Below, in pieces: positions 7,259 through 55,655 of a stretch of 64,000 nt of DNA (the first letter of the stretch is position 1; the number at the start of each line of letters is the position of its first letter). Location: the IMG/VR virus record IMGVR_UViG_3300020394_000267, positions 27,070 to 91,069 of that record. One strand, written 5' to 3'. The DNA is from a virus. The position numbers were made by a program, and so were the translations under genes. The notes beneath the pieces are model-generated. The model had not been told where the DNA came from. It saw only the letters and a program-made list of their open reading frames with translations, and did not search any database.

Positions 7259-7694
7259 TTTAGACACAAAAATAGCTCTTATGGAGAACGATATCAGACA
7301 GATGGGGGGACTGTTTGATAGACTTGATGTATCCATAGAAAAGATTACAGAGTTAAATACCTCGATTAAGGAGGTTCTTGCGGTGCATGAACAAAGAATT
7401 ACTGCCGCTGAGGTAGACTTAGAAAGAACATATGATACTTTTGAAGAGAAGTATGAACAATTACATTCGCGTATATCTACCACTAACAGGGAATTATCAA
7501 AAGAACTGAAAGATAATACCGCCGCTGTACAAGACACTTTAAAGGAACTAACTGCTCAAATAACTGAGCACGCGAATCACCATGACGATAGAATAAGGGC
7601 CCTCGAAAAAAGACAGTGGATGATGATGGGTGCTGCCGCTATTTTAGGATTCTTAATAGGAAATGCAGAAGCTTTATCGCTAATTTTCTCTTGA
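7242..7694 (+). CDS. Coiled-coil protein with C-terminal membrane anchor
   Basis: 150 residues. Residues ~10-115 have a continuous heptad-like pattern (IEKITELNTSIKEVLAVHEQ and onward), followed by a basic spacer (RIRALEKRQ) and one hydrophobic segment (MMMGAAAILGFLIG) near the C-terminus. This is the layout of small tail-anchored phage proteins (haemolysin XhlA-like / DUF7201-like) found in cyanophages. The last codons overlap the -35 box of a promoter that drives the next gene, so this gene closes the first transcription unit. Confidence 0.8.
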   Translation: MANQTNLDTKIALMENDIRQMGGLFDRLDVSIEKITELNTSIKEVLAVHEQRITAAEVDLERTYDTFEEKYEQLHSRISTTNRELSKELKDNTAAVQDTLKELTAQITEHANHHDDRIRALEKRQWMMMGAAAILGFLIGNAEALSLIFS

Positions 7695-29792: not shown

Positions 29793-29821
29793 AAATAATT
29801 CGTCTTTTTTGAAGAAAACGC

Positions 29822-29850
29822 TTGACAACTGCTGATCTAATGTGTATAAT
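29822..29850 (+). promoter_or_regulatory. Perfect sigma70 promoter
   Basis: CGCTTGACA with TTGACA at 29822-29827, exactly 17 bases, TATAAT at 29845-29850. It is the first of two tandem promoters ahead of the structured non-coding region. The 100 bases between the promoters hold no convincing gene (only a five-codon ATG frame at 29875). Confidence 0.85.
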
Positions 29851-29927
29851 AGGGTGTCGCCTTTAAGAAGAGATATGGCTGCTGCTAAGTGATTGATATA
29901 TAAGGGAAATAAAAGATAAAATAATAC

Positions 29928-29956
29928 TTGACAACTGGTCTCATATGTGAGATCAT
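29928..29956 (+). promoter_or_regulatory. Second tandem promoter, GATCAT class
   Basis: TTGACA at 29928-29933, 17 bases, GATCAT at 29951-29956 with TG at the extended -10. Expected start at about 29963, at the upstream edge of the structured non-coding stretch. The palindrome seen at 7712 and 31898 is only partial here. Confidence 0.75.
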
Positions 29957-29962
29957 TATACC

Positions 29963-30420
29963 ATACTGAGAGATGAGGAGATTATATAGTGTTGTGACAA
30001 TAATTTAAACCCCAGTTAAACCGCACCATCTCACCGTGGTTGAGGTTCAAGGAAGAGTGCTATGGGGTCGGAAATGAATCACGGTGCCGAGTCGCAAAGG
30101 TGGCATGACCACGCTCCGATGAGGTAATGACAGGCAGGGCTGGCTGCCATGAACAAGGTGGAGAGACAACTACTAAAGGAGAGTCCCCAGTAGTGGCAAT
30201 GCACAAAGCAGTACCATGAAAAGGACAGGGCGGATGTCAAAGGGTGAGACCCGGCCGCTAACAGGGTTGTGCCTCAATACACACGCGCTCCCCCACGGTT
30301 AGGGGAGCATCACCCAGCAGCAGAGGGGTCAGGCGGGCCTATGCTTTGGGATCGAGGTGGTCGCCCTTACAAGTGCATCTGGCATCCCCCCATATGCATT
30401 ACTAAAAAAAGTTTTTGCCC
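29963..30420 (+). ncRNA. Putative large structured non-coding RNA 1
   Basis: About 460 bases with no credible reading frame, GC-richer than the neighbouring genes and preceded by two good promoters. Perfect helices seen by eye: CACCGTG 30032-30038 with CACGGTG 30080-30086; GGCAG 30133-30137 with CTGCC 30144-30148; ACTACT 30169-30174 with AGTAGT 30189-30194; and a 7-base stem GCTCCCC 30287-30293 with GGGGAGC 30302-30308 closing an 8-base loop. A terminal hairpin-like AGTGCAT/ATGCATTACT pair (30371-30404) precedes an A/T run. It shares a core with the RNA at 33.9-34.2 kb. No tRNA, tmRNA, RNase P or group I intron signature is visible. Large phage RNAs such as GOLLD are a possible class to test. 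The 3' end is approximate. Confidence 0.6.
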
Positions 30421-30462
30421 ACCCACAGAAACCGCCACAGAATTTTTTTCGGGATATAAATT

Positions 30463-30900
30463 ATGGCAGATATAATTTTTGATGTAGACGGCACTCTTAT
30501 GGATATTACTCATAGGAGGCATTTCGTTGCACAGCGTCCCAAGGACTTTGATTCGTTTCGGAGTCATACTGAATTCGATACCAGAAAGGAAGATATCTTT
30601 GCCATTGCGGATGCGTTACAGTCACAGGGGCATCGTATTCTTATATCTACTGGTAGGAATAAGTCTCAAAGGGATATTACCATTCAACAGATAAGGGATG
30701 GCGGTATAGACTTTGAGCAGATATACATGCGTTCTGATAGTGACTATACACCAGATGATGAGTTAAAGTCACGATTCTTAGACCGTATGATAGATGATGG
30801 TTACAATCCTACTATGGCATTTGATGACCGTCAAAGGGTTGTGGACATGTTTCGTTCACGAGGTTTAACCGTCTTCCAAGTAGCGGAAGGCAATTTTTAA
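30463..30900 (+). CDS. HAD phosphatase, PseT 3'-phosphatase-domain-like
   Basis: 145 residues. Motif I IIFDVDGTLMDITHRR, motif II ILISTGRNKSQRD and the ending AFDDRQRVVDMFRSRGLTVF match the phosphatase domain of T4 polynucleotide kinase and its stand-alone relatives. No kinase P-loop domain is attached, so only 3'-phosphate or 2',3'-cyclic-phosphate removal would be expected, in RNA/DNA end repair. First protein gene after the structured RNA, with no strong ribosome site (GGGATATAAATT precedes the ATG). Confidence 0.85.
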   Translation: MADIIFDVDGTLMDITHRRHFVAQRPKDFDSFRSHTEFDTRKEDIFAIADALQSQGHRILISTGRNKSQRDITIQQIRDGGIDFEQIYMRSDSDYTPDDELKSRFLDRMIDDGYNPTMAFDDRQRVVDMFRSRGLTVFQVAEGNF

Positions 30901-35033: not shown

Positions 35034-35174
35034 TTTGACACCTCCTGTATTAAGAGATGCGTTCCTTCGGCGGAATTGCCTACTTCCGTCCACCGCTACA
35101 TTTAGGGTGGATGAACGAATGTAGTCTTTTCACCCATGACTTATGGAGTACCGATTGGTACAGTATTATTTATC
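35034..35174 (-). promoter_or_regulatory. Structured 140-base leader upstream of the DUF4278-like gene
   Basis: Plus-strand hairpin-capable pairs: CTACATT 35095-35101 with AATGTAG at ~35117-35123; CCAT/ATGG at 35133-35145; GTACC-GATT-GGTAC at ~35148-35161; CGGAA/TTCCG near 35070-35088. The minus strand reads GCGGTGGACGG at 35096-35086, the same 11 bases as non-coding RNA 2 at 33884-33894. A near-consensus late motif (GATAAATA) lies at the upstream end. Could be a cis-regulatory RNA or a third small structured RNA. Confidence 0.45.
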
Positions 35175-39818: not shown

Positions 39819-40940
39819 TTATTCGTCAATTGAACACACCTCTTCATCGGGATTTAACTGACAGAAGTCATCCTTCTTGTAGACATTATATTCTACCTTT
39901 CTTCCTTGTTTATCTCTATACCATCCAGCGACTTCTTCTTCCTCAATGAGAGAATCTTTAGGTGCTACAGCAGGATGCATCTTCCATGCATTTAATGCCT
40001 CATCACCTATCTTACCTCTATATGGGCAGGGCGTGCCGGCCATTAGCATCGCATTGAACACGCGAGCATCTTGGCACATCAAAGATACAGCAGCTACCTT
40101 CATCCCCATGTCGTATAAACCGCGGCTTAATTTAATCCTTTCGCAGTTTTCATCTCGTACTGTTTTACCAGCACTAATACCGAACACTTGAGTTTGTACC
40201 GCTCCACCGACACCTGTGGTACACAAGTCTTGTGAATAAGACCCACCTATTGCCGGCGCAATAGCGCTCGGGGGCGGTGACTTAATTTCTTGTTTTATCT
40301 TCTGGTCTGAGTGGTTCACATTAATGTTTTCATTCTTGTTGTTTGATGTAACATTTGAATCACTCGTACTTGTACTAGTATTGACATTATTGTTATTATT
40401 GGTGTTATTGTTGGTGTTACTAGTCGTAGTATTATTAGTAATATTACTCGTGTTATTGCTTGTGCTATTGGAAGTAACATTACTAGTATTATTATTCGTA
40501 TTCGTTTGATTCACCGTCTGGTTAACAGTACTATTATTTGTATTGGTATTGTTACTAGTGCTATTAATAGTATTGTTATTAGTATTGATATTGGTGTTGG
40601 TGCTAGTTCCAGTATAAGTCGTATTATTGTTATTGTTATTAGTATTAGTACTCGTACCAGTATAATTGGTTGTGTTCACATTAGTATTGCTATTGGTGTT
40701 CACATTGGTATTGCTACCAGTATATGTGGTAGTGTTAGTATTATTATTGGTGTTGCTATTGGTATTTGTACCAGTATAATTTGTCGTATTATTATTGGTG
40801 TTATTGTTGGTATTGGTGTTGTTCGTTGTGCTATTCACAGTGCTATTACTAGTGGTATTCACTGTGCTAGTATCCGCCATAGCTGGGCCCGCTATCAACA
40901 GCCCGCCAATCAATAGACAGACATGTTTCCTAAATTTCAT
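39819..40940 (-). CDS. Secreted Asn/Thr-repeat protein with Cys-rich C-terminal domain
   Basis: 373 residues with GAGGAGA upstream on the minus strand. Sec signal peptide (KHVCLLIGGLLIAGPAMA, cleavage before DTST). Residues ~25-215 are almost only Asn, Thr, Ser with occasional YTG (plus-strand bases ~40298-40868), built of short NTNNNT/YTGTSTN repeats. Residues ~235-373 form a distinct domain with six or more Cys (DLCTTGVGG, NCERIKLSRGLYDMGMKVAA, MCQDARVFNAMLMAG). The N/T tract should be extended, and in some bacteria such tracts are O- or N-glycosylated. The codon repeats create long antisense open frames that are shadows. Role unknown. Confidence 0.82.
   Translation of the reverse strand: MKFRKHVCLLIGGLLIAGPAMADTSTVNTTSNSTVNSTTNNTNTNNNTNNNTTNYTGTNTNSNTNNNTNTTTYTGSNTNVNTNSNTNVNTTNYTGTSTNTNNNNNNTTYTGTSTNTNINTNNNTINSTSNNTNTNNSTVNQTVNQTNTNNNTSNVTSNSTSNNTSNITNNTTTSNTNNNTNNNNNVNTSTSTSDSNVTSNNKNENINVNHSDQKIKQEIKSPPPSAIAPAIGGSYSQDLCTTGVGGAVQTQVFGISAGKTVRDENCERIKLSRGLYDMGMKVAAVSLMCQDARVFNAMLMAGTPCPYRGKIGDEALNAWKMHPAVAPKDSLIEEEEVAGWYRDKQGRKVEYNVYKKDDFCQLNPDEEVCSIDE
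40298..40868 (-). repeat. Imperfect AAT/ACT codon-repeat tract (Asn/Thr coding)
   Basis: About 570 bases of short degenerate repeats (plus strand: ATTATTG, GTATTG, CCAGTATAA) coding the Asn/Thr/Ser region of the secreted protein. Repeats are imperfect, so they are likely old or kept variable; length variation by slippage or recombination would be expected between strains. Confidence 0.75.
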
Positions 40941-43638: not shown

Positions 43639-44408
43639 ATGTAGCAATACTTGGTTATGGATTTTGTGGGAAGGCTACTGAGCGTATGCTTAGAACATGT
43701 AAAGAAATAAAACGAATTCAAATTCAAGACCCAAAATATGATAAAAAAATATCACCAGACGAATGGGACTTGATTGACTATGCTTTTGTTTGTGTTCCAA
43801 CACCACTAATACAAAACTACAGTGTAATGGATCATTTTTACAATGGAAATGAGTTTGATATGTCTATTGTCCATAAAGCAATAGAAGATGTACCAGACAG
43901 AACAAGAATAGTTATCCGTAGCACAGTTGGCCCAGATAATTTAGAAAAAGGTTGGATTCACTGGCCTGAATTCTTGCGAGAAAATAATTGGGAAGAGGAT
44001 GCAGATGATAAATCAATTCCTTTTATATTAGGTGTAGACCACGATGATAAAGATGCAATTAATGATTTAGTTTGGTTAATGAAAGACCGAGATGGGGTAC
44101 TTGTTAATCCAAAAGTGGCTGCAACTTATAAGTTGTCTAGGAACGCGATGTTAGCTGCCAAAGTAACCATGGCAAACTACATTCACAAAGTATGCGAAGA
44201 ACAAAATATATCATATGGGTCTGTAGCAGGGTTATTAAAAGACCATGCAAATTTAGGAACATCTCACTGGGATGTGCCAGGCCCCGATGGTCAATATGGT
44301 TTTGGTGGTTCTTGTTTTCCAAAAGACACCACACACTTTGCTTCAATGTTAGGTAATCAAAGTAACATCTTTACTCATGTCTTGAGGTGCAATGAACGAA
44401 GTCGCTAA
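43635..44408 (+). CDS. Short UDP-glucose/GDP-mannose dehydrogenase family protein
   Basis: 257 residues. NAD-binding VAILGYGFCGKATE at the N-terminus, VCVPTP (~53), VIRSTVGP and the catalytic-Cys block GQYGFGGSCFPKD (~residues 222-234). The protein ends ~25 residues after the catalytic Cys, so the C-terminal UDP-binding Rossmann domain of the ~400-residue family is missing. A complete paralog lies at 58.4 kb. It may act with another subunit, or oxidise a smaller sugar substrate. Overlaps the first radical SAM gene by 17 bases. Confidence 0.82.
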   Translation: MNVAILGYGFCGKATERMLRTCKEIKRIQIQDPKYDKKISPDEWDLIDYAFVCVPTPLIQNYSVMDHFYNGNEFDMSIVHKAIEDVPDRTRIVIRSTVGPDNLEKGWIHWPEFLRENNWEEDADDKSIPFILGVDHDDKDAINDLVWLMKDRDGVLVNPKVAATYKLSRNAMLAAKVTMANYIHKVCEEQNISYGSVAGLLKDHANLGTSHWDVPGPDGQYGFGGSCFPKDTTHFASMLGNQSNIFTHVLRCNERSR

Positions 44409-45669
44409 ATACCTAGATGATATTACAAGAAGAAACAACGCAATCGGTAAGGGATTCTGTGTTCTAAAGTGGTGGCATTTAGAAATGCATTTGGGTACAG
44501 GTAATTATCATTCCTGTTTTCATTGTCCACAACAAAATCTTAAACTTGATGAAGATATGCATAATACTCTTCACAAGATGCAACAAAGAAAAACTATGTT
44601 GGAAGGTGGGAGACCAGATGAATGTTCTTATTGTTGGAAGGCAGAAGATGTTGGTGCGGTAAGTCCTAGAACAACCCTTACTCCAATATACACGCAGATG
44701 GAAGAGGATATCATTGAAACCACTGCTAACTTAAAGTGGGATGAATATGTGTATCCAAAGTATTTGGAGATGAGTTTTTCAAATACATGTCAAATGAAAT
44801 GTTCCTATTGCGCTCCGTCTTTGAGTTCTACCTTGTTACAAGAAATTAAAAAGGAAGGTGCGTATCCTCTCGCAGACCCAGAGAATCGTGGACAATATGA
44901 ATTAAATGGAACTGAGGAACTTTATAAGGATGATGATAACCCCTTGTTGGATAAGTTTTGGGATTGGTTTAGTGAGGCAAGAAAACATCTTGATACATTG
45001 AGAATAACAGGCGGAGAACCCTTGTTACATAAAAGTACATTTGATATGATGGATAGATTGCGTGGAGAGTCTATCAACTTTCATATAAACAGTAATTTAT
45101 CAGTATCGAATAGAAGAGTAACAGAAGCATGTAACTTGTTACCAGCGAAGTCTAAAGTGTATGCTAGTGTAGATACATTTGGAAAACAGGCAGAGTGGAT
45201 TAGACACGGACTTAACTGGGATTTATTTGACCAGAATGTTCTTACTGTTATCAATCACAAAATACCATTGAGTTTTATGACAACATTCTGTTTATTAAGT
45301 ATACCTAGATTCAAAGACTTTTTATATTATATCGTACAACTAAAAGATATAGGGGATGTATTGATTGATACACCGTTTATGACAAACCCGCCACATTTGT
45401 CATGTCTTATAATGGATGATGATATGAGAGAAACATTAGAAGATAGTTATCAGTTTATGTCATATAACAGTGAGTTTAACCACGCGGAAGTCGTAAAATT
45501 TGAAAGACTATTGAAATGGGTGGATGCAAATAGGTTCACTGGAGAACGCCTAAATAGTCACAGAAAGGATTTTAAAACATTTGTCGATGAACATGATAGA
45601 CGCAGAGGCACAAATTGGCATGATGCGTTCCCAGAGTTGACATATTTTTATGAGTTATGTGATGCCTGA
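44392..45669 (+). CDS. Radical SAM protein 1 of the array (N-terminal accessory Cys domain)
   Basis: 425 residues. The SAM/4Fe-4S motif C-x3-C-x2-C is CQMKCSYC (~residues 133-140), followed by RITGGEPLLHKSTFD and HINSNLSV in the usual order. Upstream of it, residues ~15-90 contain SCFHCPQQN and CSYCWKAED, an accessory Cys domain (twitch-like) at the N-terminus instead of the C-terminus. C-terminal residues include FVDEHDRRRGTNWHDAFPEL, a motif shared by the paralogs. First of seven tandem copies. Such enzymes generate a 5'-deoxyadenosyl radical to abstract hydrogen from a peptide or sugar; target unknown. Confidence 0.88.
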   Translation: MNEVAKYLDDITRRNNAIGKGFCVLKWWHLEMHLGTGNYHSCFHCPQQNLKLDEDMHNTLHKMQQRKTMLEGGRPDECSYCWKAEDVGAVSPRTTLTPIYTQMEEDIIETTANLKWDEYVYPKYLEMSFSNTCQMKCSYCAPSLSSTLLQEIKKEGAYPLADPENRGQYELNGTEELYKDDDNPLLDKFWDWFSEARKHLDTLRITGGEPLLHKSTFDMMDRLRGESINFHINSNLSVSNRRVTEACNLLPAKSKVYASVDTFGKQAEWIRHGLNWDLFDQNVLTVINHKIPLSFMTTFCLLSIPRFKDFLYYIVQLKDIGDVLIDTPFMTNPPHLSCLIMDDDMRETLEDSYQFMSYNSEFNHAEVVKFERLLKWVDANRFTGERLNSHRKDFKTFVDEHDRRRGTNWHDAFPELTYFYELCDA

Positions 45670-47050
45670 AAACAAACCCAATGAATACTGGATAGAACAG
45701 TTAAAAGAAAAACGAGAAAAGATTAATCAAATTAGTCCTTCTTTTTGTTCTGCTAAATGGTTACAGACTACTCTCTATTTGCAGAATGGGTATAATCACT
45801 CTTGTCACCATCCCTCGCCTCATAAAATACCAGTAAAAGAAGTATTAGAGAATCCAGCAGCTCTTCATAATAGTAATTATAAGAAGCAACAAAGAATCAA
45901 AATGATTAATGGTGAAAGACCCAAAGAGTGTGATTATTGCTGGAGAATAGAAGACCAAGGTAAGGGACACTTTTCTGACCGTCATTATAAAACTGCTGAT
46001 TGGTGGTCATGGGATAAGGTTGATGTTATTGCAACTGATAACCCCACAAAAGATGTCTACCCAACATACCTAGAGGTGTCGTTTTCAAACGCATGTAATT
46101 TCGCGTGTGCATATTGTTCACCAGAAATAAGTTCTGAGTGGATGAAAGATATAGAAAAAAATGGTGACTACCCTGTAGAGTTTGGTTCTGGTAATCTTGA
46201 CTATTTGAGACAAGTAGAAAAGTTTCCATATAAACACTCTGACCCCAATCCATATGTAGATGCATTTTGGAAATGGTTCCCAGAGGCGCTTCCTCATTTG
46301 AGAGTGTTTCGTATTACTGGTGGTGAACCCACTATGAGTAAAGATGTATGGAAGGTATTGGATTACATATATGAAAATGCTCAACCAGAATTGTCTATTG
46401 CAATCAATAGTAATCTTGGTACAACACCAAAATTGATACAGAGACTTGTTGACTCATGTAACAAATTAAGAGACAAAGTTAAACAAATTGAGATATATAC
46501 AAGTGCGGAGGCAATTGGAGAACAGGCAGAATATATAAGAGATGGAATGGATTATGATTATTGGCGTTCTAATGTAGAAAAGGTTTTAACAGAAACAGAC
46601 GCGAATGTAGCAATCATGACTACATTGAACATATTGAGTATGACTACATTTGAAAACTTCATTGAAGACATAATGCAGTTAAGAATCAAGTATAATAAAG
46701 ATTTAGCGAATAATAGAATACCGTTAAGTATAAACTATTTGAGATTCCCCCCTCATTTACAATGTACTCTATTGGATAGAAATACCAGAATATCCTATGC
46801 ATCTGATTATGAACTAATAGCAAAGGTTTGGTTGAAGTACAATTCACCAGACAAGTTCGCAAGAATTTATTTGGAAGAGTATGACCAGATACAAAGGTTC
46901 TGTGAATATCTTAGGCAAGAACACAAAGGTGCTGAAAAATATAGAGCAGACTTTGTAAATTATATAAAAGCCTACGATATCAGAAGGTCGAAAAACTTTA
47001 GCAAAACTTTTCCAGAATATAAACATTTATTGGAGTGGTGGGATGCCTAA
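45662..47050 (+). CDS. Radical SAM protein 2 of the array
   Basis: 462 residues from the ATG at 45662 (an in-frame ATG at 45650 also exists); overlaps the previous gene. N-terminal domain: FCSAKW, CHHPSPHKIP, and CDYCWRIEDQ; radical SAM core CNFACAYC (~145-152), RITGGEPTMSKDVW and AINSNLGT. The N-terminal SCHHP-HKIP block is closely matched in protein 3, so these two are sister copies. C-terminal AYDIRRSKNFSKTFPEY matches the family end motif. No SPASM domain downstream. Substrate unknown. Confidence 0.88.
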   Translation: MPENKPNEYWIEQLKEKREKINQISPSFCSAKWLQTTLYLQNGYNHSCHHPSPHKIPVKEVLENPAALHNSNYKKQQRIKMINGERPKECDYCWRIEDQGKGHFSDRHYKTADWWSWDKVDVIATDNPTKDVYPTYLEVSFSNACNFACAYCSPEISSEWMKDIEKNGDYPVEFGSGNLDYLRQVEKFPYKHSDPNPYVDAFWKWFPEALPHLRVFRITGGEPTMSKDVWKVLDYIYENAQPELSIAINSNLGTTPKLIQRLVDSCNKLRDKVKQIEIYTSAEAIGEQAEYIRDGMDYDYWRSNVEKVLTETDANVAIMTTLNILSMTTFENFIEDIMQLRIKYNKDLANNRIPLSINYLRFPPHLQCTLLDRNTRISYASDYELIAKVWLKYNSPDKFARIYLEEYDQIQRFCEYLRQEHKGAEKYRADFVNYIKAYDIRRSKNFSKTFPEYKHLLEWWDA

Positions 47051-47270
47051 AAAATACATTCATGTAAACATGCACAAAATTCGTGCTAATAAAAAACATG
47101 GGACAAACGAACCTGTTCTTACAGTAAAAGAGGGAAGAAAAAATACTTATGGACATAGTGTAAAGATACATGGCCCGAGTGAAGTAATATATGGTGGCAA
47201 TGATAAACCATTGTTACCCTGTGGGGCAAGAGTTGTTATAATGACAGAAGCGGAGATTGAAATTGAATAA
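47043..47270 (+). CDS. Small conserved phage protein inside the radical SAM array
   Basis: 75 residues, overlapping radical SAM gene 2 by 8 bases and gene 3 by up to 14. Basic N-terminus (KKYIHVNMHKIRANKKHGTN), then beta-rich (PVLTVKEGRKNTYGHSVKIH; LPCGARVVIMTEAEIEI). This resembles small proteins found alone in T4-like cyanophages, so it may be a normal phage gene that the array was built around, rather than a precursor peptide. It is a candidate substrate or partner because of position only. Confidence 0.75.
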   Translation: MPKKYIHVNMHKIRANKKHGTNEPVLTVKEGRKNTYGHSVKIHGPSEVIYGGNDKPLLPCGARVVIMTEAEIEIE

Positions 47271-48765
47271 AGAATATGATTTGATAAAGTATCGGAAAGA
47301 CATTCTTGATACTAAGTCGAAGAGTTTTTGTGGTGCGAAATGGTACAACGCTACCACATGGTTAGGTAGTGGTACTACTGCTAGTTGTCATCACCCCCCA
47401 GCACATAAGATTCCGTTACACGAGATTGCAGCTGACCCATCTGCTATTCACAATACGCAACATAAGAAAGCAATGCGTAAGATGATGCAACGCGGAGAAA
47501 GACCGCGTGAGTGTGAGTATTGTTGGAAAGTTGAAGACATGGGCAATGATGCAGTTAGTGACAGAGTTTTTAAATCAATCATATACACCAATGAAGATTT
47601 AAAGAAGGCACACGAAGCAGACTTCAATGATAACACACTATTAAAAACATTTGAGATTGCATTTGACCGAACATGTAACCTTGCTTGTTCTTATTGTAAC
47701 TCAAGTTTCTCTACTACATGGGCAAAGGATATAAAGAAACATGGCCCTTATCAAAACATGGTATCAGATGGTGCGGCCGCCTTCCAACATGACGGTGCGT
47801 GGGCAGACCCATATGGTAAGAAAGAAGAGAATCCATATGTAACTGCTTTCTGGGATTGGTGGGAAGATGGACTATCAGAAAGTCTTGAAGAGTTGAGAGT
47901 TACAGGTGGAGAACCTTTAATGTCTGACCAAGTATGGAAGTTGTTTGATTGGTTTGAGAATAATCCATCTGACATGCGATTTGCAGTAAACTCTAATCTC
48001 ATTGCGAAGGAAAGTATTGTTGATAGATTGATTGAAAAATCAAAAGGGGTTAAGAAGTTTCATCTTTATACTAGTTGCGAGGCAACAGGAAAACAAGCAG
48101 AGTATATAAGAGATGGACTTGATTACGAACTATGGACTAATAATATAACGCGATTTATCAAAGAAGGCAACTATGAGGGCATCAATATAATGATGACTAT
48201 TAATAGTTTGTGTCTGTTTAGTATCACAGACTTCTTAGATGATGTATTCAAACTAAAAGAATTGACAAAAAGTAAGACACCTGTATTTAGTGTTAACTTA
48301 TTGCGATTCCCTAGTTTCCAAAGTCCTCTTGCACTACCAGACCATATTAAAGATTATCTTAGAGAGAATCTATCTAATTGGTATGAAGAAAATAAAGACA
48401 GACAATACTGGCACGATTTTGAAAAAGCAAGTATTGAAAGATTGATAGACTATCTAGTAATTGTTGATGCACCACATAGACGAACCAGTGACAAGATGAC
48501 TTTGTGGAGAGATTTTAAAACCTTCTATGGTCAATATGATGAAAGAAGGGATAAAAGTATTTCTGTGTTTCCAGAAATTCTTACTGATTGGGTAGACACC
48601 CTTCCAGATACAGAAACAAAACCTATTACAGTTATGCCAAGTGGTGACAGTACAGAACAGTACGCGGATGACCCCGACTTGAAAAAGATTGCTGAAGAAG
48701 AAGGTTGGGTATTGAAACCAGACAATAAAAACATCGACAAACCATTAGGAGATTACGACAAATGA
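47263..48765 (+). CDS. Radical SAM protein 3 of the array, non-ATG start
   Basis: About 500 residues. No ATG lies in frame before the conserved N-terminal domain; a TTG at 47263 is 7 bases after GGAG, and a TTG at 47257 is the other candidate. N-terminal FCGAKW, CHHPPAHKIP and CEYCWKVED, radical SAM CNLACSYC (~139-146), RVTGGEPLM, FAVNSNLI. C-terminal QYDERRDKSISVFPEI, then an extra ~55-residue acidic tail not present in the others. Closest to protein 2. Confidence 0.86.
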   Translation: MNKEYDLIKYRKDILDTKSKSFCGAKWYNATTWLGSGTTASCHHPPAHKIPLHEIAADPSAIHNTQHKKAMRKMMQRGERPRECEYCWKVEDMGNDAVSDRVFKSIIYTNEDLKKAHEADFNDNTLLKTFEIAFDRTCNLACSYCNSSFSTTWAKDIKKHGPYQNMVSDGAAAFQHDGAWADPYGKKEENPYVTAFWDWWEDGLSESLEELRVTGGEPLMSDQVWKLFDWFENNPSDMRFAVNSNLIAKESIVDRLIEKSKGVKKFHLYTSCEATGKQAEYIRDGLDYELWTNNITRFIKEGNYEGINIMMTINSLCLFSITDFLDDVFKLKELTKSKTPVFSVNLLRFPSFQSPLALPDHIKDYLRENLSNWYEENKDRQYWHDFEKASIERLIDYLVIVDAPHRRTSDKMTLWRDFKTFYGQYDERRDKSISVFPEILTDWVDTLPDTETKPITVMPSGDSTEQYADDPDLKKIAEEEGWVLKPDNKNIDKPLGDYDK

Positions 48766-49640
48766 AGATATTAATGACAGGTTCCTCTGGGTTCATAGGG
48801 TCTCACCTTACACCCTACCTAAGAGAACATGAAATTCATCACTTACAAAGTGATTTAAGACATCACGGATTGGTTAGAACAGAGGTTAGAGATTTTCAAC
48901 CAGACATGATTGTACACCTTGGAGCGAGAACAGAAGTTGAACAAAGTTTCTATGAACAAATAACATTCAGTGAAATTAACTATGTTGGTAGTGTAAACCT
49001 TATTGAAGTCTCAAGAGAGATTCCTAATTTTAAGAACTTTGTTTTTGCGAGTACAATGGAAGTATATGGCCCGCAACCAAAACATACAGTATGTGACCAT
49101 CTTACTACTCCATATCCAAATGCACCATATGCCGTTGCTAAATATGGTGTTGAAAAATATCTGGAGTATGCTGGTAGGTCTTATAGTCTTCCTTATACTA
49201 TTATTAGACAGACCAATTGTTATGGTAGAAAAGACAACGACTTCTTTGTTACTGAACAGATTATAACTCAGATGTTAGACAATCCAGATGAAATACATTT
49301 GGGATATGCTGACCCCTATCGTAACTTTATATACATTGATGATATGTTAGATGCGTGGACTGCCATTATTAATAATCCAGAAAAATGTAAGGAGAAGATA
49401 TTTACCCTAGGCCCAGACAACCCGATTCAAATAAGAGACTATGTTGATATCATTGCTCAAAAAATAGGTTGGGATGGAAAGGTATATTGGAATACAAAAC
49501 CAGAAAGGCCAGGCGAAATATATTGGTTGAATAGTAGTGGAAAGTTATTAGAAGATACACTTGGTTGGATACCAAAAGTGACTCTATCAGAAGGATTAGA
49601 TAGAACAATTTCTTGGTGGAGAAATGTCAGTAAAAGATAG
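48762..49640 (+). CDS. NAD-dependent sugar epimerase/dehydratase (extended SDR)
   Basis: 292 residues, ATGA-coupled to radical SAM gene 3. Rossmann motif MTGSSGFIGSHL at the N-terminus, STMEVYG (catalytic Ser/Thr) near residue 92 and YAVAKYG (catalytic Tyr-x3-Lys) near residue 122, then RQTNCYGR, VYWNTKPERPGEIYWL. This is the order of UDP-hexose 4-epimerase/dTDP-glucose 4,6-dehydratase relatives. It would make or interconvert an NDP-sugar for glycan assembly. Sitting inside the radical SAM array argues that the array acts on sugars or glycoconjugates. Confidence 0.9.
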   Translation: MKILMTGSSGFIGSHLTPYLREHEIHHLQSDLRHHGLVRTEVRDFQPDMIVHLGARTEVEQSFYEQITFSEINYVGSVNLIEVSREIPNFKNFVFASTMEVYGPQPKHTVCDHLTTPYPNAPYAVAKYGVEKYLEYAGRSYSLPYTIIRQTNCYGRKDNDFFVTEQIITQMLDNPDEIHLGYADPYRNFIYIDDMLDAWTAIINNPEKCKEKIFTLGPDNPIQIRDYVDIIAQKIGWDGKVYWNTKPERPGEIYWLNSSGKLLEDTLGWIPKVTLSEGLDRTISWWRNVSKR

Positions 49641-50931
49641 ACCCTACCTTTGCACCGCACCTTGGACACATACCTATGTTTCCCCACAAGGAGAACGAAG
49701 GTTGTGTTGTGCTAGCAGAGAAGAGGCATCTTTTCAAAAACAATACTTAGATAGTGGTACTGCGGAAGGTAAATTTAAACCACTATCATTAGAAGAACAC
49801 TGGAATAGTGATTATATGAAAGACATCCGCAAAAGGATGTTAGCAGGAGAAAAATTAAAACAATGTCAAGTATGCAATGACCAAGTTTTGAATCTACATA
49901 CTTATCGTCAATACTTTACAGAGACATTGTTCCCCCACAAAGTAGAAGACATTATAGCGACTACGCGAGAAGACGGACACTATGATAAATTGCCAGTCTC
50001 GTATGATTATCGTATTTCTAATCTATGTAACTTTAAATGTCGGATGTGTGGGGAACAATTGTCTTCTAGTTGGGAAGCAGAGAAGAAGAAACACAATCTT
50101 ATTGATGTGAAACAAGACCCTTGGATGGAACCCACCACCAGAAAGAAAATATCAAACTTTCAAGAAGAGGTCTTAGAAGAAGAATTACAAAAAGCAGTTG
50201 ATAATAAAACCATTGAAGAAATATACTGGGTTGGTGGCGAACCATTGATGTGGGAAAGACACTGGACTATTATGCAACAACTGGTAGACAATGGACACGC
50301 GAAAAATGTTACCATTCGTTATAACACAAATCTAAGTAGAGTAAAATATAAAGATTATAATTTATGGGAGATGTTACCACACTTTAAGAATGTTAATATA
50401 TGTGCTAGTATTGATGGTGCGTATGAGGTGGGCGAATATATCAGAGATGGACTAGTGTGGAGTGAGTGGATAGAAAACTTTAAGTCTGGTATGTTTCTTA
50501 TAGACCAGTTTGGTGATGATGCACTAGTATTCGATGTAACTCTAACAACGCCAGGCTTATTCCATCTTGATAAGTTGATTGATGTTGCCAGTTCTCTTGA
50601 TATAAAGTCATATTTTAAATTTACATACGCATTTGACCCAAGTGTTGTTATGTCACCATTTTGTCTTCCTAAAGATGTGCTTTTACCCCAAGTTGATTCA
50701 TTAATGCAACACATAGATGAACGACTAACATGGAAAACAAAAGTTTATAAAGATTCACTGGTTAATCTAATAAATAGAGAGTCATTTGATGAACAATGGC
50801 CTGACACATATAAAGATGGTTTGAAACGCGGAAAGCAGTTTCAAGAATATCTTGATAATTTAAGAAACTCCAAACTAAAGTTTGTTGATACACTTCACGG
50901 TAACGCCGTGGATTGGTGGAATAGAATATGA
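49624..50931 (+). CDS. Radical SAM protein 4 of the array (SPASM/twitch-like N-terminus)
   Basis: 435 residues. N-terminal accessory motif CTAPWTHTYVSPQGERRLCC, then LEEHWNSDYMKDIRKRMLAG and CQVCND; radical SAM CNFKCRMC (~135-142), YWVGGEPLMWERHW and YNTNLS. This N-terminal layout (C-x2-PW...CC...WNSD...IRxxML...CxxC) is the classic SPASM/twitch Cys pattern, but it precedes the radical SAM core. Its C-terminus (FVDTLHGNAVDWWNRI) departs from the FPE motif of the others. Different subgroup from proteins 1-3. Confidence 0.88.
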   Translation: MSVKDRPYLCTAPWTHTYVSPQGERRLCCASREEASFQKQYLDSGTAEGKFKPLSLEEHWNSDYMKDIRKRMLAGEKLKQCQVCNDQVLNLHTYRQYFTETLFPHKVEDIIATTREDGHYDKLPVSYDYRISNLCNFKCRMCGEQLSSSWEAEKKKHNLIDVKQDPWMEPTTRKKISNFQEEVLEEELQKAVDNKTIEEIYWVGGEPLMWERHWTIMQQLVDNGHAKNVTIRYNTNLSRVKYKDYNLWEMLPHFKNVNICASIDGAYEVGEYIRDGLVWSEWIENFKSGMFLIDQFGDDALVFDVTLTTPGLFHLDKLIDVASSLDIKSYFKFTYAFDPSVVMSPFCLPKDVLLPQVDSLMQHIDERLTWKTKVYKDSLVNLINRESFDEQWPDTYKDGLKRGKQFQEYLDNLRNSKLKFVDTLHGNAVDWWNRI

Positions 50932-52154
50932 GTGAAACATTTTGTCCTTTACCTTGGAATCATTTAGCAACTCATCCGCATGGGATATGTACTTTATGTT
51001 GTGAATCAAATCAAGAAGAAGGACAGTCACAAGCTTTTAATGAAACAAATAATAAAGCATTTAGAGAGTTTCTAACACTACAAAAAGTAGATGACTTTTC
51101 TGATATTACCAATTCAGACAGTTTTAGTAAAGTCAGACTGCAAATGTTGAACGGTGAAAAACCTATTGAATGTAGCAAGTGTTGGGAAGCAGAAAGTGTA
51201 GGAAATAAAAGTAAGCGATATTACGAAAGTCGCCGTCTTCCTATGACTTTGGAACAAGCGAAAGAAATAACAAATGACGATGGAACTCTAAAGGAGGTCA
51301 ACTATGAATTTGTGGAATTGCGTCTTGGCAACCATTGTAATGTTCAGTGCCGGACTTGCAATCCTTACTCATCTTCTAGGTGGTTAAAGGATTGGGATAA
51401 CATATATCCAGAAAGAAGAGCGCTTCCAGAGTTCACGCGAAAAAGTAGTTTCAACTGGCCATTGGAAGAAGAGTTCTGGGAAAAACTTATTGATAGATGC
51501 AACGAATTACGATTGTTGTATATCAATGGTGGTGAACCTTTTCTTATAGACAAACATTTTAATTTTCTACAGACTTTAGTTGATAGAGGAATATCAAAGA
51601 ATGTAGAAATAGTATACTCTACTAACTGTACCATTATTAATCACACATATGAGGATATATGGAAGGAATTTAAAAAGGTACAGTTTATGTTGTCTATTGA
51701 TTGTGTAGGTGAGAGAAATGAATATATCAGAACCTATACCGCGTGGTCTAAGGTATTAGAGTTTGTTGATTGGATGAAGGATATCACAAGCAAGAATGAT
51801 AACCTAGATTATAACATACTTCAAACTGTATCCACATATAACATTTTTTATATACCAGAATTCTATGAGTATTTTGATGGCGAACATATAAGTCATAACT
51901 TTGTAAAAGACCCCGCCCAGTATGACCCACTAATTTTACCACAACAAGTACAACAAAAGATTTTGGATAAGTTGTCTGGATGTGGGGGATATGATGTTGT
52001 TAAAAACTACTTTAATATAGAAGGTATATCATATACTGACTTAGAAGTAATGAAGTCGTTCTTTCAAAAAACTGGTGCCATGGATGTTACGAAAAAAACA
52101 TCTTTCAAAAAAACCTTCCCAGAATTTTATGAGTTAATTAAAGATTATGAGTGA
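50928..52154 (+). CDS. Radical SAM protein 5 of the array
   Basis: 408 residues, ATGA-coupled. N-terminal FCPLPWNHLATHPHGICTLC, LQMLNGEKPIECSKCWEAES; radical SAM CNVQCRTC (~137-144), LYINGGEPFLIDKHF, and MLSIDC. C-terminal SFKKTFPEFYEL. Near-identical architecture to proteins 6 and 7, showing repeated duplication with divergence. Substrate-binding residues cannot be read. Confidence 0.88.
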   Translation: MSETFCPLPWNHLATHPHGICTLCCESNQEEGQSQAFNETNNKAFREFLTLQKVDDFSDITNSDSFSKVRLQMLNGEKPIECSKCWEAESVGNKSKRYYESRRLPMTLEQAKEITNDDGTLKEVNYEFVELRLGNHCNVQCRTCNPYSSSRWLKDWDNIYPERRALPEFTRKSSFNWPLEEEFWEKLIDRCNELRLLYINGGEPFLIDKHFNFLQTLVDRGISKNVEIVYSTNCTIINHTYEDIWKEFKKVQFMLSIDCVGERNEYIRTYTAWSKVLEFVDWMKDITSKNDNLDYNILQTVSTYNIFYIPEFYEYFDGEHISHNFVKDPAQYDPLILPQQVQQKILDKLSGCGGYDVVKNYFNIEGISYTDLEVMKSFFQKTGAMDVTKKTSFKKTFPEFYELIKDYE

Positions 52155-53367
52155 TAAGAAAAATTTATGTATGTTACCGTGGGTGCATTTGCACACATGG
52201 CCTAATGGTAATGTATATCCTTGTTGCATCACTCCAATGCAATATATTGCTGGGAATTTGAACGATGATAGTTTAGAAGACATTTATAATAGTGACTTAA
52301 TGAAAGATATCCGCGTGAAAATGTTAAATGATGAAAGACATGAAGCGTGTGCTAGGTGTTATCACCAAGAAGATTCTGGTGGACATTCCATGAGACACAG
52401 AGCAAATAAGTCTTGGAAAAAACATGAGAACCTAATTGAAACTACACAGGATGATGGTACAGTAAAAGAAATGAAACTCCCATATTGGGACTTTAGGTTT
52501 TCTAATATATGCAACTTCAAATGTCGTAGTTGTGGCCCACAGTTAAGCACTGGTTGGTATCCAGATACAAAGAAGATTGCTGTCTTAGAAACAGGTAGGT
52601 CATTCTTACCAGATGATGTTCCAAAGGGAAATACATTTGATTTGTGGGAACAGATAGAACCCCACTTTGAATATGTAGAAGAAATTTATTTCGCTGGTGG
52701 TGAACCTCTTATAATGGAAGAACACTATCGCATATTAAAGAAACTAGATGAGATGGGTAAACACGATGTACTCATTCGATATAATACAAACTTTAGTGAA
52801 ATGCGATACAAGGATTTACATGTCTTGGAGTTCTGGCCAAAGTTTAAGAATATAGAAGTTGGTGCGAGTATAGATGGAATGAAGGAACAAGGTGAATTTA
52901 TTCGTAGTGGATTTAACTGGGAACAGTTCAAAGAAAATAGAAACCGAATGAAAGAAACATGTCCTCATGTAAACTTCTATGTTAGTTGTACAACCAGTAT
53001 ACAGAACTCTTATCATATAGTTCCATTTCATATGTCACTAGTAGAACATGGTTATATAGATGATTATGAAAGTTTCTTTGTTAACATTGTTACTGAACCC
53101 CCATGGCTTGATATGAGAATCTTACCAGAACAACACAAGAACATATTATCTGATTGTTACCAACAACACATAGATTTCTTAGATAAAAAACAAGCATGGA
53201 GCACCAAACAAGGATTTGTTAGTCTACGGAATCACCTTTTGCAGTCAGTAGAAAATGAGGATTTGTTAAAAACATTTGCCTATAGAATGAAGATGATTGA
53301 CGATATAAGGAACGAGAACTTCCAAGAAACATTCCCCGAACTAAAGGACTTATACGATGCCGTTTAA
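52147..53367 (+). CDS. Radical SAM protein 6 of the array
   Basis: 406 residues, overlapping its neighbours by 8 and 11 bases. N-terminal LCMLPWVHLHTWPNGNVYPC, then LEDIYNSDLMKDIRVKML and CARCYHQEDSGG; radical SAM CNFKCRSC (~122-129), YFAGGEPLIMEEHY and GASIDG. C-terminal DIRNENFQETFPEL. The PW/CC/IRxxML order is the textbook SPASM/twitch block. Confidence 0.88.
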   Translation: MSDKKNLCMLPWVHLHTWPNGNVYPCCITPMQYIAGNLNDDSLEDIYNSDLMKDIRVKMLNDERHEACARCYHQEDSGGHSMRHRANKSWKKHENLIETTQDDGTVKEMKLPYWDFRFSNICNFKCRSCGPQLSTGWYPDTKKIAVLETGRSFLPDDVPKGNTFDLWEQIEPHFEYVEEIYFAGGEPLIMEEHYRILKKLDEMGKHDVLIRYNTNFSEMRYKDLHVLEFWPKFKNIEVGASIDGMKEQGEFIRSGFNWEQFKENRNRMKETCPHVNFYVSCTTSIQNSYHIVPFHMSLVEHGYIDDYESFFVNIVTEPPWLDMRILPEQHKNILSDCYQQHIDFLDKKQAWSTKQGFVSLRNHLLQSVENEDLLKTFAYRMKMIDDIRNENFQETFPELKDLYDAV

Positions 53368-54481
53368 AGAAAAAGATAGACCCAGAGATGATGATTACTT
53401 CTTTTCAGAGGACTACGCTGGTGTCAACGAATGTAAGGATGCAATAATAACTTTAAGACTTAGGAATAGTAGAGACAAGAGTATCAAACCACTAGAAATT
53501 AAAATTGCATTGGATGACCATCACGCGGTAGATATTTGGTTCCAGAGATTTAAACACGAACTATATTCTGGAGCATTTCTAAGAAAAGAACATGTATTCA
53601 TGGGAGAGAGTACCCTTACTACGGAAGACATGATAGAAAAAGTAAATGGTACACTAGACCATATATCAAAGTTCGACTTTGTTGCTGAACAATGGACGCG
53701 ATGGCCAGACTTTGTAAAAGCAGACCAGAGAAATGTATTAGACCAACCCTTAACAGAGAATCCAGACATATCAGAGAGATTGACAATAGAAGATTTTAAG
53801 GATGGTAATGATAATAAAAAGATGAATGTAATTCACAATTATTTTCCATTGTTATCTGGGCCAGCGGAAAGAACTACGGCACATTTGTATGTTGCCTCTC
53901 CAGATGTACAGGCTAGTATTTGTAGGTTGAACTTAGAGGTTCACGAACTTCACACCACATTGCAGAATGATGAACAGGCAGAATTCAACATGCATGTAAA
54001 TGTATCTTGGCAAAGAGCGCCCAAGAAATTACCAGTATTGCCAGACTCATTTAATGAGTTGTTTACTAAGTACACGAAATTTGGAGATGTGTTATTAGGA
54101 TTTCCTCAAATTGGAAAGACCCACATAGAAGCATACGCGGAAGAAGATGAAGAGTTAGAAGATGAACATATAGAACCAATTAAGTTTTTGTCTGGTGATA
54201 TGTTGATTAAATTTTCAACAGACCAACATGAAAACTGGGTAAAGGGATTTGATGAATGGTTGATTGAACAGGGATTAGACCCAGAAGATAAAAAAGGCAG
54301 ATATGGTTTTGCAAAACTAGGTAGAGTTATTGATTGTGACTTAGATTTTGTAAAGGAAAATATCTCTGGTGTATATGATGACATATCCATGATATCCGTC
54401 AATGATGAACCATATCATTATCCTTATAGCAGATTTGATGATGATTATAAAGAAAGATTTTTGAGGTATTTACATGACTGA
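53357..54481 (+). CDS. Unknown protein embedded in the radical SAM array
   Basis: 374 residues, tightly overlapping radical SAM genes 6 and 7 (11 and 8 bases). No Cys cluster, P-loop or signal peptide. N-terminal half has a beta/alpha pattern (AIITLRLRNSRDKSIKPLEI; LTTEDMIEKVNGTLDHISKF), a mid segment MNVIHNYFPLLSGPAERTTA, and the C-terminal FAKLGRVIDCDLDFVKENI. I do not recognise a family. The only non-enzyme-like gene inside the second half of the array, so it is a candidate scaffold, substrate carrier or partner of the radical SAM proteins. Confidence 0.75.
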   Translation: MPFKEKDRPRDDDYFFSEDYAGVNECKDAIITLRLRNSRDKSIKPLEIKIALDDHHAVDIWFQRFKHELYSGAFLRKEHVFMGESTLTTEDMIEKVNGTLDHISKFDFVAEQWTRWPDFVKADQRNVLDQPLTENPDISERLTIEDFKDGNDNKKMNVIHNYFPLLSGPAERTTAHLYVASPDVQASICRLNLEVHELHTTLQNDEQAEFNMHVNVSWQRAPKKLPVLPDSFNELFTKYTKFGDVLLGFPQIGKTHIEAYAEEDEELEDEHIEPIKFLSGDMLIKFSTDQHENWVKGFDEWLIEQGLDPEDKKGRYGFAKLGRVIDCDLDFVKENISGVYDDISMISVNDEPYHYPYSRFDDDYKERFLRYLHD

Positions 54482-55655
54482 TAAGATTTGTGTATTGCCT
54501 TGGGTTCACACGGAGTTCACTACAGATGGAACCGCGAACCCATGTTGTTTATATAAAGGCAATCCTATGGGGAACCTAAAACAAGAAAACTTTCTTGATG
54601 TCTGGAATGGAGAACCATATAAGAACTTACGAAGAGAGTTTCTTGAAGGCAAACAACCATCTGGATGTGCCATGTGTTGGGAAGGAGAAGAGGCAGGATA
54701 TCAATCAAAGAGATTACAAGATAATAAAAGATTTGCTAAAGAACTTGAAGAGATAAAAGAAAGACAAAGTTTTATTGCTACTGATACTCCAAAATATCTT
54801 GACTTAAAGTTTGGTACATTATGTAATTTAAAGTGTAGAACTTGTGGTAGCATAAACAGTTCAAAGTGGCAAACAGACGAGAAAAAACTATACGGTAGAA
54901 TTCTAAACAAAAAAGACCCCTTGTGGATTGCAAAAAATCCAAGTGTGTGGGATGAACTTTTTGAGATTATGCACACAGTAGAACAAATGGACTTCACAGG
55001 CGGTGAACCATTTATGATAGAAGAACACTTTGAGTTATTGCGTAGAACAGTCGAGGCTGGACACGCGGAACACATATCTTTACATTATAACACAAATGGG
55101 ACTATTCGTCCACCACAAAAGATATTTGATTTGTGGAAAGAGTTCAAGTCTTGTGAAGTAATGTTCAGTATTGATGGGATATTCAAGAAATTTGAATATA
55201 TTAGACACCCAGCAAAATGGGATGAAACTTGGGACAACTATAACTACTTTAAATCACTTGATTGGATGTATGTTCAAGTATGTCATACAGTTAGTCTTTA
55301 TAACATATACTATTTGGATGAGTTTGTAGACATGTTTGGAAGAGAAAATATATATCTCAATCTTTTACACTTTCCTAGACAGTATTGTGTTAGGAATATG
55401 CCAGATGTATGTAAAAAACAGGTTGAGGATAAACTTATAAATATGACAGATATGAATGATATCATATCTTTCATGAACCAAGAACCAAATTTTGATAAAT
55501 TAGACCTTGGGTTTTTACCTGTTACAGAAAGATTAGATGGATTGAGAAATGAATGTTATAGTGAAGTATTTCCAGAATTTTATAGGATATTGATTGATGG
55601 CGGAATTGGAAAAGAACCTTGGAACCCTAAACAGTACTTTGGACAGATTAGTTGA
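54474..55655 (+). CDS. Radical SAM protein 7 of the array
   Basis: 393 residues. N-terminal ICVLPWVHTEFTTDGTANPC, then LDVWNGEPYKNLRREFLEGK and CAMCWEGEEAG; radical SAM CNLKCRTC (~116-123), DFTGGEPFMIEEHF and MFSIDG. C-terminal LRNECYSEVFPEFYRILID. Overlaps the glycosyltransferase-like gene by 59 bases. Same subgroup as proteins 4-6. Confidence 0.88.
   Translation: MTDKICVLPWVHTEFTTDGTANPCCLYKGNPMGNLKQENFLDVWNGEPYKNLRREFLEGKQPSGCAMCWEGEEAGYQSKRLQDNKRFAKELEEIKERQSFIATDTPKYLDLKFGTLCNLKCRTCGSINSSKWQTDEKKLYGRILNKKDPLWIAKNPSVWDELFEIMHTVEQMDFTGGEPFMIEEHFELLRRTVEAGHAEHISLHYNTNGTIRPPQKIFDLWKEFKSCEVMFSIDGIFKKFEYIRHPAKWDETWDNYNYFKSLDWMYVQVCHTVSLYNIYYLDEFVDMFGRENIYLNLLHFPRQYCVRNMPDVCKKQVEDKLINMTDMNDIISFMNQEPNFDKLDLGFLPVTERLDGLRNECYSEVFPEFYRILIDGGIGKEPWNPKQYFGQIS

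Follow-up and report, generated by a model that had tools for sequence, protein, structure and literature searches.

What product, if any, is encoded by a gene-free stretch of phage DNA that follows two promoters? This question is raised by a locus in the window analysed here, a stretch of 64,000 nucleotides (27070-91069 in a virus record that is 91,069 bases long) belonging to a phage that is described as lytic and aquatic. A first-pass annotation, made from the letters alone, had pointed to a gene-free stretch, GC-richer than its surroundings and preceded by a perfect TTGACA-17-TATAAT and a second promoter of the GATCAT class, and had read it as a candidate for an undescribed structured phage RNA, perhaps one that serves host takeover or is packaged.

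Promoters and gene content of the locus

The locus is as that annotation described it. The GC content is 0.52-0.59 across 30000-30400 versus 0.35-0.42 in the flanks, no credible gene is present in 29793-30462, where the listed ORFs are short and overlapping, and both promoter sequences are in place. The stretch is bordered by the following features.

29822..29850, plus strand: putative promoter 1, TTGACA-17-TATAAT (12/12 consensus match)
29928..29956, plus strand: putative promoter 2, TTGACA-17-GATCAT (10/12, with TG before the -10 element)
30463..30900, plus strand: downstream gene with a polynucleotide-kinase-type 3'-phosphatase (HAD) domain (phrog_415/505, E about 1e-34)

Judging by their consensus match, both promoters would be of the sigma70 type, arranged in tandem upstream of the RNA stretch, and transcription is expected to start near 29963, behind promoter 2. 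TTGACA-17-GATCAT recurs on the plus strand of the window, at 7691, 29928 and 31876, and may represent a phage-specific early promoter class; the copies at 7691 and 31876 also have TTGACATTTGC in common, with GATC after it. The phosphatase domain at 30463-30900 stands alone, is of an enzyme type that heals RNA ends, and adjoins the RNA as its neighbour.

The entire RNA and its close relatives

The folding energy of the RNA is not unusual (-152.6 versus -155.3 +/- 6.3 for shuffled sequences, z 0.43), and because the RNA folds no better than shuffled sequences, its structure must be judged by comparison. Three close contigs (L002, L003 and L004) were obtained through the downstream gene and a fourth (L019) through a conserved 17-mer, and the promoter region aligns in all four. 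L003, L004 and L019 retain the entire RNA, while L002 keeps the promoters and the 3' half and has an ORF of 147 amino acids in place of the 5' domain. The RNA can be divided as follows.

29963..30415, plus strand: structured non-coding RNA (covariation over four relatives; ends inferred)
29963..30261, plus strand: lineage-specific 5' domain (in L003, L004 and L019 only; replaced by the 147-aa ORF in L002)
30032-30038/30080-30086, plus strand: long-range helix CACCGTG/CACGGTG of the 5' domain (compensatory double changes)
30335..30395, plus strand: conserved 3' domain (GGGCCTATGC...CCCCCCATAT), kept in 5/5 relatives including L002

A consensus fold of four sequences contained 12 compensatory double-change pairs, compared with 4.1 +/- 1.5 after shuffling (0/500) and at most one when slid, the fold having been predicted on the same alignment, in which L003 and L004 are near-identical and about three sequences are independent. 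The clearest case is the long-range CACCGTG/CACGGTG pair, which the first-pass annotation had noticed, which is exact, and in which three adjacent pairs switch together in L003, L004 and L019. Two double changes were also found in the closing helix, 29988-29996/30391-30398, suggesting that a single RNA spans the stretch. The 3' domain barely varies. Insertions and deletions whose lengths are not divisible by three disrupt the reading frames in the relatives, so no conserved frame runs through the stretch, and a U-rich end is present at the 3' side of the RNA in the relatives.

When copies of the 5' domain were sought elsewhere using a conserved 16-mer, the remaining matches were unrelated. The ORF in L002 (4300-4743, plus strand) is flanked by the promoters and the 3' half that L002 shares with the window, and it has no PHROG match; as far as can be read from the sequence, its presence in place of the 5' domain is a cargo swap, RNA for protein.

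A pseudoknot-hairpin motif within the RNA

The first-pass annotation had also noticed the stem GCTCCCC/GGGGAGC with its 8-nt loop, and the stem is exact. What it had overlooked is that this hairpin makes up the 3' half of a motif of about 50 nt that occurs once per genome in many other phages, while the remainder of the RNA is restricted to a few closely related ones. The motif has the following parts.

30258..30311, plus strand: the widespread pseudoknot-hairpin motif (matched by covariance model R1, E 7.3e-17)
30263..30283, plus strand: H-type pseudoknot with P1 (30263-30265/30272-30274) and P2 (30268-30271/30280-30283), supported by covariation
30287-30293/30302-30308, plus strand: hairpin P3 with loop CACGGTTA at 30294-30301 (double changes at 7/7 pairs in A1)

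Across its copies, the motif consists of the H-type pseudoknot, an invariant CGC, and the 7-bp hairpin with loop CAnGGUnA. Its covariation score in 41 dissimilar copies was 0.710, compared with 0.217 +/- 0.017 after shuffling (0/500) and 0.211 or less when slid, and double changes were seen at 11/14 pairs. Among the 101 unique copies listed, pseudoknot pair 6-17 is AU in 47, CG in 26, GC in 23, GU in 3 and UA in 1, and pair 14-23 is UA in 46, GC in 34, CG in 11, UG in 8 and AU in 2. P1 has two firm pairs and a third (8-15) that is often non-canonical, mostly G.A. G-U exceeds A-C by 47:18 overall and by 11:0 within P1 and P2, indicating that the reported (sense) strand is the strand of the folded RNA. 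Many unpaired bases are invariant, an invariance that is overstated at AATA, CACGC and CACGGTTA, as the pattern scans held the first two fixed and the first scan also the last. An RNAalifold helix across the motif (helix 13) was dropped because it contains broken pairs and is incompatible with the pseudoknot.

Distribution of the motif

At least about 170 distinct IMG/VR contigs hold the motif, representing at least 101 distinct sequences; these contigs are fragments and were not dereplicated by lineage. A looser pattern, AATANNCACGCN{5,9}CACGGTTA, matched at least 119 stretches, in most of which a 7-nt spacer is complementary to the bases 3' of the loop; the few matches with a spacer of 5 or 9 nt have no such stem and were discarded as chance. 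When the hairpin was left free in a second pattern, nearly all of the matches listed proved to have it too, with the loop consensus CAnGGUnA. CCCCCACGGTTAGGGG also matched unrelated phages. Several of the aquatic phages carrying the motif have T4-like genes.

Model R1 found exactly one copy in each of 61/61 records (sets of 20 and 42 with one in common; 8.7-204 kb), all picked for holding a copy, so that the figure shows copy number and not prevalence. The window's own whole record likewise has one copy. In the pattern search, L190 (positions 812 and 1275) was the only locus with two copies among the matches listed. The distant homologues of the downstream gene (L005-L018) are without the motif; a match in L011 was rejected as a chance GGGTTGTTATAACCC hairpin. 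Across 84,980 species genomes of bacteria and archaea, the strict pattern, with its fixed 7-base spacer, had no match. One copy in every carrier record searched and none by that pattern in the species genomes points to a need shared in lytic infection, which annotation at present misses.

A cultured carrier was found in methylophage Melnitz (EXVC044M), which has one divergent copy (46556-46608, E 1.4e-7) between a permuted tmRNA and the gene for the late-transcription coactivator. P2 of this copy is altered on both sides, to GAUG/CAUC, and the pairing is thus compensated. Melnitz also has a glutamine riboswitch (L225 19675-19723) on the 3' side of the tmRNA, about 110 nt before the motif; in the window, a glutamine riboswitch (RF01739, 60 bits, E 9.9e-11) is located at 35056-35119 on the minus strand.

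R1 gave no significant match in HTVC008M, T4, Cr30, P-SSM2, S-PM2, syn9, phiM12, S-SSM6a, BUCT-ZZ01 or Mosig; these negatives come from smaller batches, the stricter filters of one large batch having lost the known Melnitz copy. Searching 50,697 phage records by blastn with the window RNA and two motif variants returned nothing or weak, unrelated matches, and the Melnitz isolates were found in blastn by a Melnitz-derived query only. A Melnitz-type pattern had a single match, which was unrelated.

Comparison with known RNA families

The first-pass annotation had stated that the RNA is not recognizable as tRNA, tmRNA, RNase P or a group I intron. This holds: ARAGORN found no tRNA or tmRNA in it, and no Rfam 15 family, including GOLLD, ROOL, HEARO, the introns, RNase P, tmRNA, the ribozymes and the riboswitches, matches it at the gathering score. 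When the window and 17 motif loci were scanned at that score, tRNA, tmRNA and the glutamine riboswitch were the only families returned, none of them over the motif; at E<=10, the matches were at chance level and, for the window RNA, eukaryotic. No tmRNA was found in the window (ARAGORN and Rfam) or in the whole record (RF01849), and the window has no tRNA-like domain, resume codon and tag of the kind that mark a permuted tmRNA. We found no open literature describing the loop sequence or the motif, although it may already stand in some candidate-RNA list under a serial name. With compensatory helices across many genomes and a place outside the catalogued families, the motif is a new structured-RNA family. 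The earlier interpretation, an undescribed structured phage RNA, therefore stands for the window RNA on its covariation, its lack of a conserved frame and its lack of an Rfam 15 match, while the results speak neither for nor against host takeover or packaging.

The RNA shares features with several known systems. In GOLLD, the 3' region is conserved and the 5' region varies, and a marine representative is located downstream of a Met-tRNA (PMC12286853). The window RNA follows a similar plan, conserved 3' and variable 5', and GOLLD and ROOL, which self-assemble into homo-oligomeric cages, are likewise structured phage RNAs often located near tRNA islands. However, both are far larger (GOLLD is often over 800 nt), neither Rfam model matches here, and the widespread part of our RNA measures only about 50 nt and can occur by itself between two tRNAs. 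The rnaC and rnaD RNAs of T4 are also small and stable and come from a T4-like tRNA cluster, but they are 119-139 nt long, and they were dropped as homologues for lack of a significant R1 match in T4. The manA and wcaG RNAs, orphan structured RNAs known from marine metagenomes and from T4-like cyanophages (PMC2864571), were considered and dropped, with no cmscan match even at E<=10.

Position of the motif copies and possible functions

In all 13 unique copies adjacent to a tRNA, P1 begins 2-8 nt past the tRNA (2-3 nt in eleven). The next tRNA starts 7-14 nt after P3 in several copies, so both ends of the motif would be set by tRNA processing, and some copies lie between two tRNAs with no ORF nearby. 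Most unique copies lie elsewhere. In the 59 that are adjacent to an ORF, the distance from stop codon to P1 is -3 to 49 nt, mostly under 24, with ORFs called by a simple rule and single distances possibly off. P3 is followed by a U-run in 24/59 of these and in 0/13 of the tRNA cases; for the 101 copies listed, one count gave 27, and an 8-base rule gave 26/101 versus 1/101 in the background. Many copies are 17-65 nt before the next ORF. Copies also occur near permuted tmRNAs, one of which, in L108, has its predicted end overlapped by the motif. The neighbouring genes vary (gp32-like, IscU-like and clamp-loader-like by sequence resemblance only, and gp33 by tblastn), which speaks against control of one particular gene.

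One copy per record, the lack of a fixed neighbour, the position at 3' ends and the embedding between tRNAs point to a small RNA gene. Overall, the explanation that we favour, tentatively and at somewhat less than an even chance, is that the motif is a single-copy small structured phage RNA, freed from a carrier transcript and acting in trans. According to this explanation: the motif would be the product of a small RNA gene riding on the transcript of another gene; in tRNA arrays, it would be freed by the tRNA-processing enzymes; behind ORFs, the RNA would end at its own P3 hairpin and U-run; and, as the gene context suggests, it would act in trans through its compact pseudoknot and the CAnGGUnA loop, with a protein or a component of translation as the most likely binding partner. 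In the window, the motif would be embedded between the lineage-specific 5' domain and the 3' domain to make one larger RNA. Against trans action weigh the copies 17-65 nt before an ORF, for which a leader role for the next gene is possible, and the fact that the motif belongs to a longer RNA in the window lineage.

Part of this explanation is that the stretch specifies a genuine structured phage RNA, some 430-450 nt in length, which would be transcribed from the tandem sigma70-type promoters and has the motif as its most widely conserved portion; the structure is shown by covariation. With caution, and again at slightly worse than even chances, the motif may represent a categorically new class of functional small phage RNA, acting in trans as a regulator or decoy or cleaving itself as a new ribozyme, and carried in single copy by many lytic aquatic phages; the window RNA would then be an enlarged version of it.

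The tight placement behind tRNAs, together with a compact pseudoknot that has many invariant unpaired bases, would also suit cleavage at the 5' edge of the motif, either by the motif itself as a new small ribozyme or by a nuclease for which it is a processing site, releasing the 3' end of the tRNA, tmRNA or mRNA that lies upstream. Theta (HDV-like) ribozymes, almost confined to phages, take this very place behind the tRNAs of gut phages (PMC10879173), being, like the 13 tRNA-adjacent copies, small pseudoknotted RNAs directly 3' of phage tRNAs; and the window copy precedes a 3'-phosphatase gene of the end-healing type. However, that gene is not beside the motif in other phages, and there is a single copy per genome even though the same phages have many tRNAs. 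In addition, the motif is a simple H-type pseudoknot with a separate hairpin and is also found behind ORFs; by inspection, it lacks the HDV-like nested double pseudoknot and the catalytic-C junction, and neither HDV nor any other ribozyme in Rfam matches it. We consider a ribozyme or processing site of this kind unlikely, although it is, together with a role in cis, the main rival.

Equally doubtful is this role in cis, in which the motif would set the expression of the following gene as attenuator, terminator or leader element, or would stabilize the 3' end of the preceding one. The excess of U-runs after P3 and the frequent location 17-32 nt upstream of a start codon that has a Shine-Dalgarno-like sequence would be expected of such an element. 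The varying neighbours and the copies set between two tRNAs would not, and a general terminator should be present more than once per genome.

Considerably less probable is that the pseudoknot imitates another RNA, either the pseudoknot of tmRNA or, as a pseudo-ToxI, a type III antitoxin, thereby neutralizing a host nuclease or binding the ribosome. The antitoxins ToxI and CptI are compact H-type pseudoknots with an A-rich loop, the same layout as here, and phage escape through pseudo-ToxI RNA is documented (PMC5086642). However, they form tandem repeats next to a toxin gene, whereas our motif is one unit per record with a conserved-loop hairpin and has no significant match to any antitoxin family in Rfam. 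A pseudoknot within the Melnitz tmRNA (L225 19538-19570, plus strand; GGGUUGACUGCCUAAUAGGUC) looks like that of the motif, but the similarity falls short of significance (E 9.2). A motif that marks an origin of replication or a site of packaging, acting through a primer transcript or at the DNA level, would fit one copy per genome at varying positions, but this is about as improbable, as both the strand-specific G-U excess and the tight same-strand placement behind genes point to an RNA within a transcript.

In Melnitz, a carrier available in culture, the expression of the motif, its processing and its partners are accessible to direct tests, and the copies that lie between tRNA genes are naturally suited to studying how phages cut stable RNAs apart.

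Two further observations were made in the window. A run of big adjoining ORFs at 44392-55655 (plus strand) has, by eye, radical-SAM-like cysteine motifs of the CxxxCxxC type. An ORF at 39819-40940 (minus strand) is rich in long Asn/Thr repeats, and a similar repeat ORF is present downstream of the motif copy in L051.
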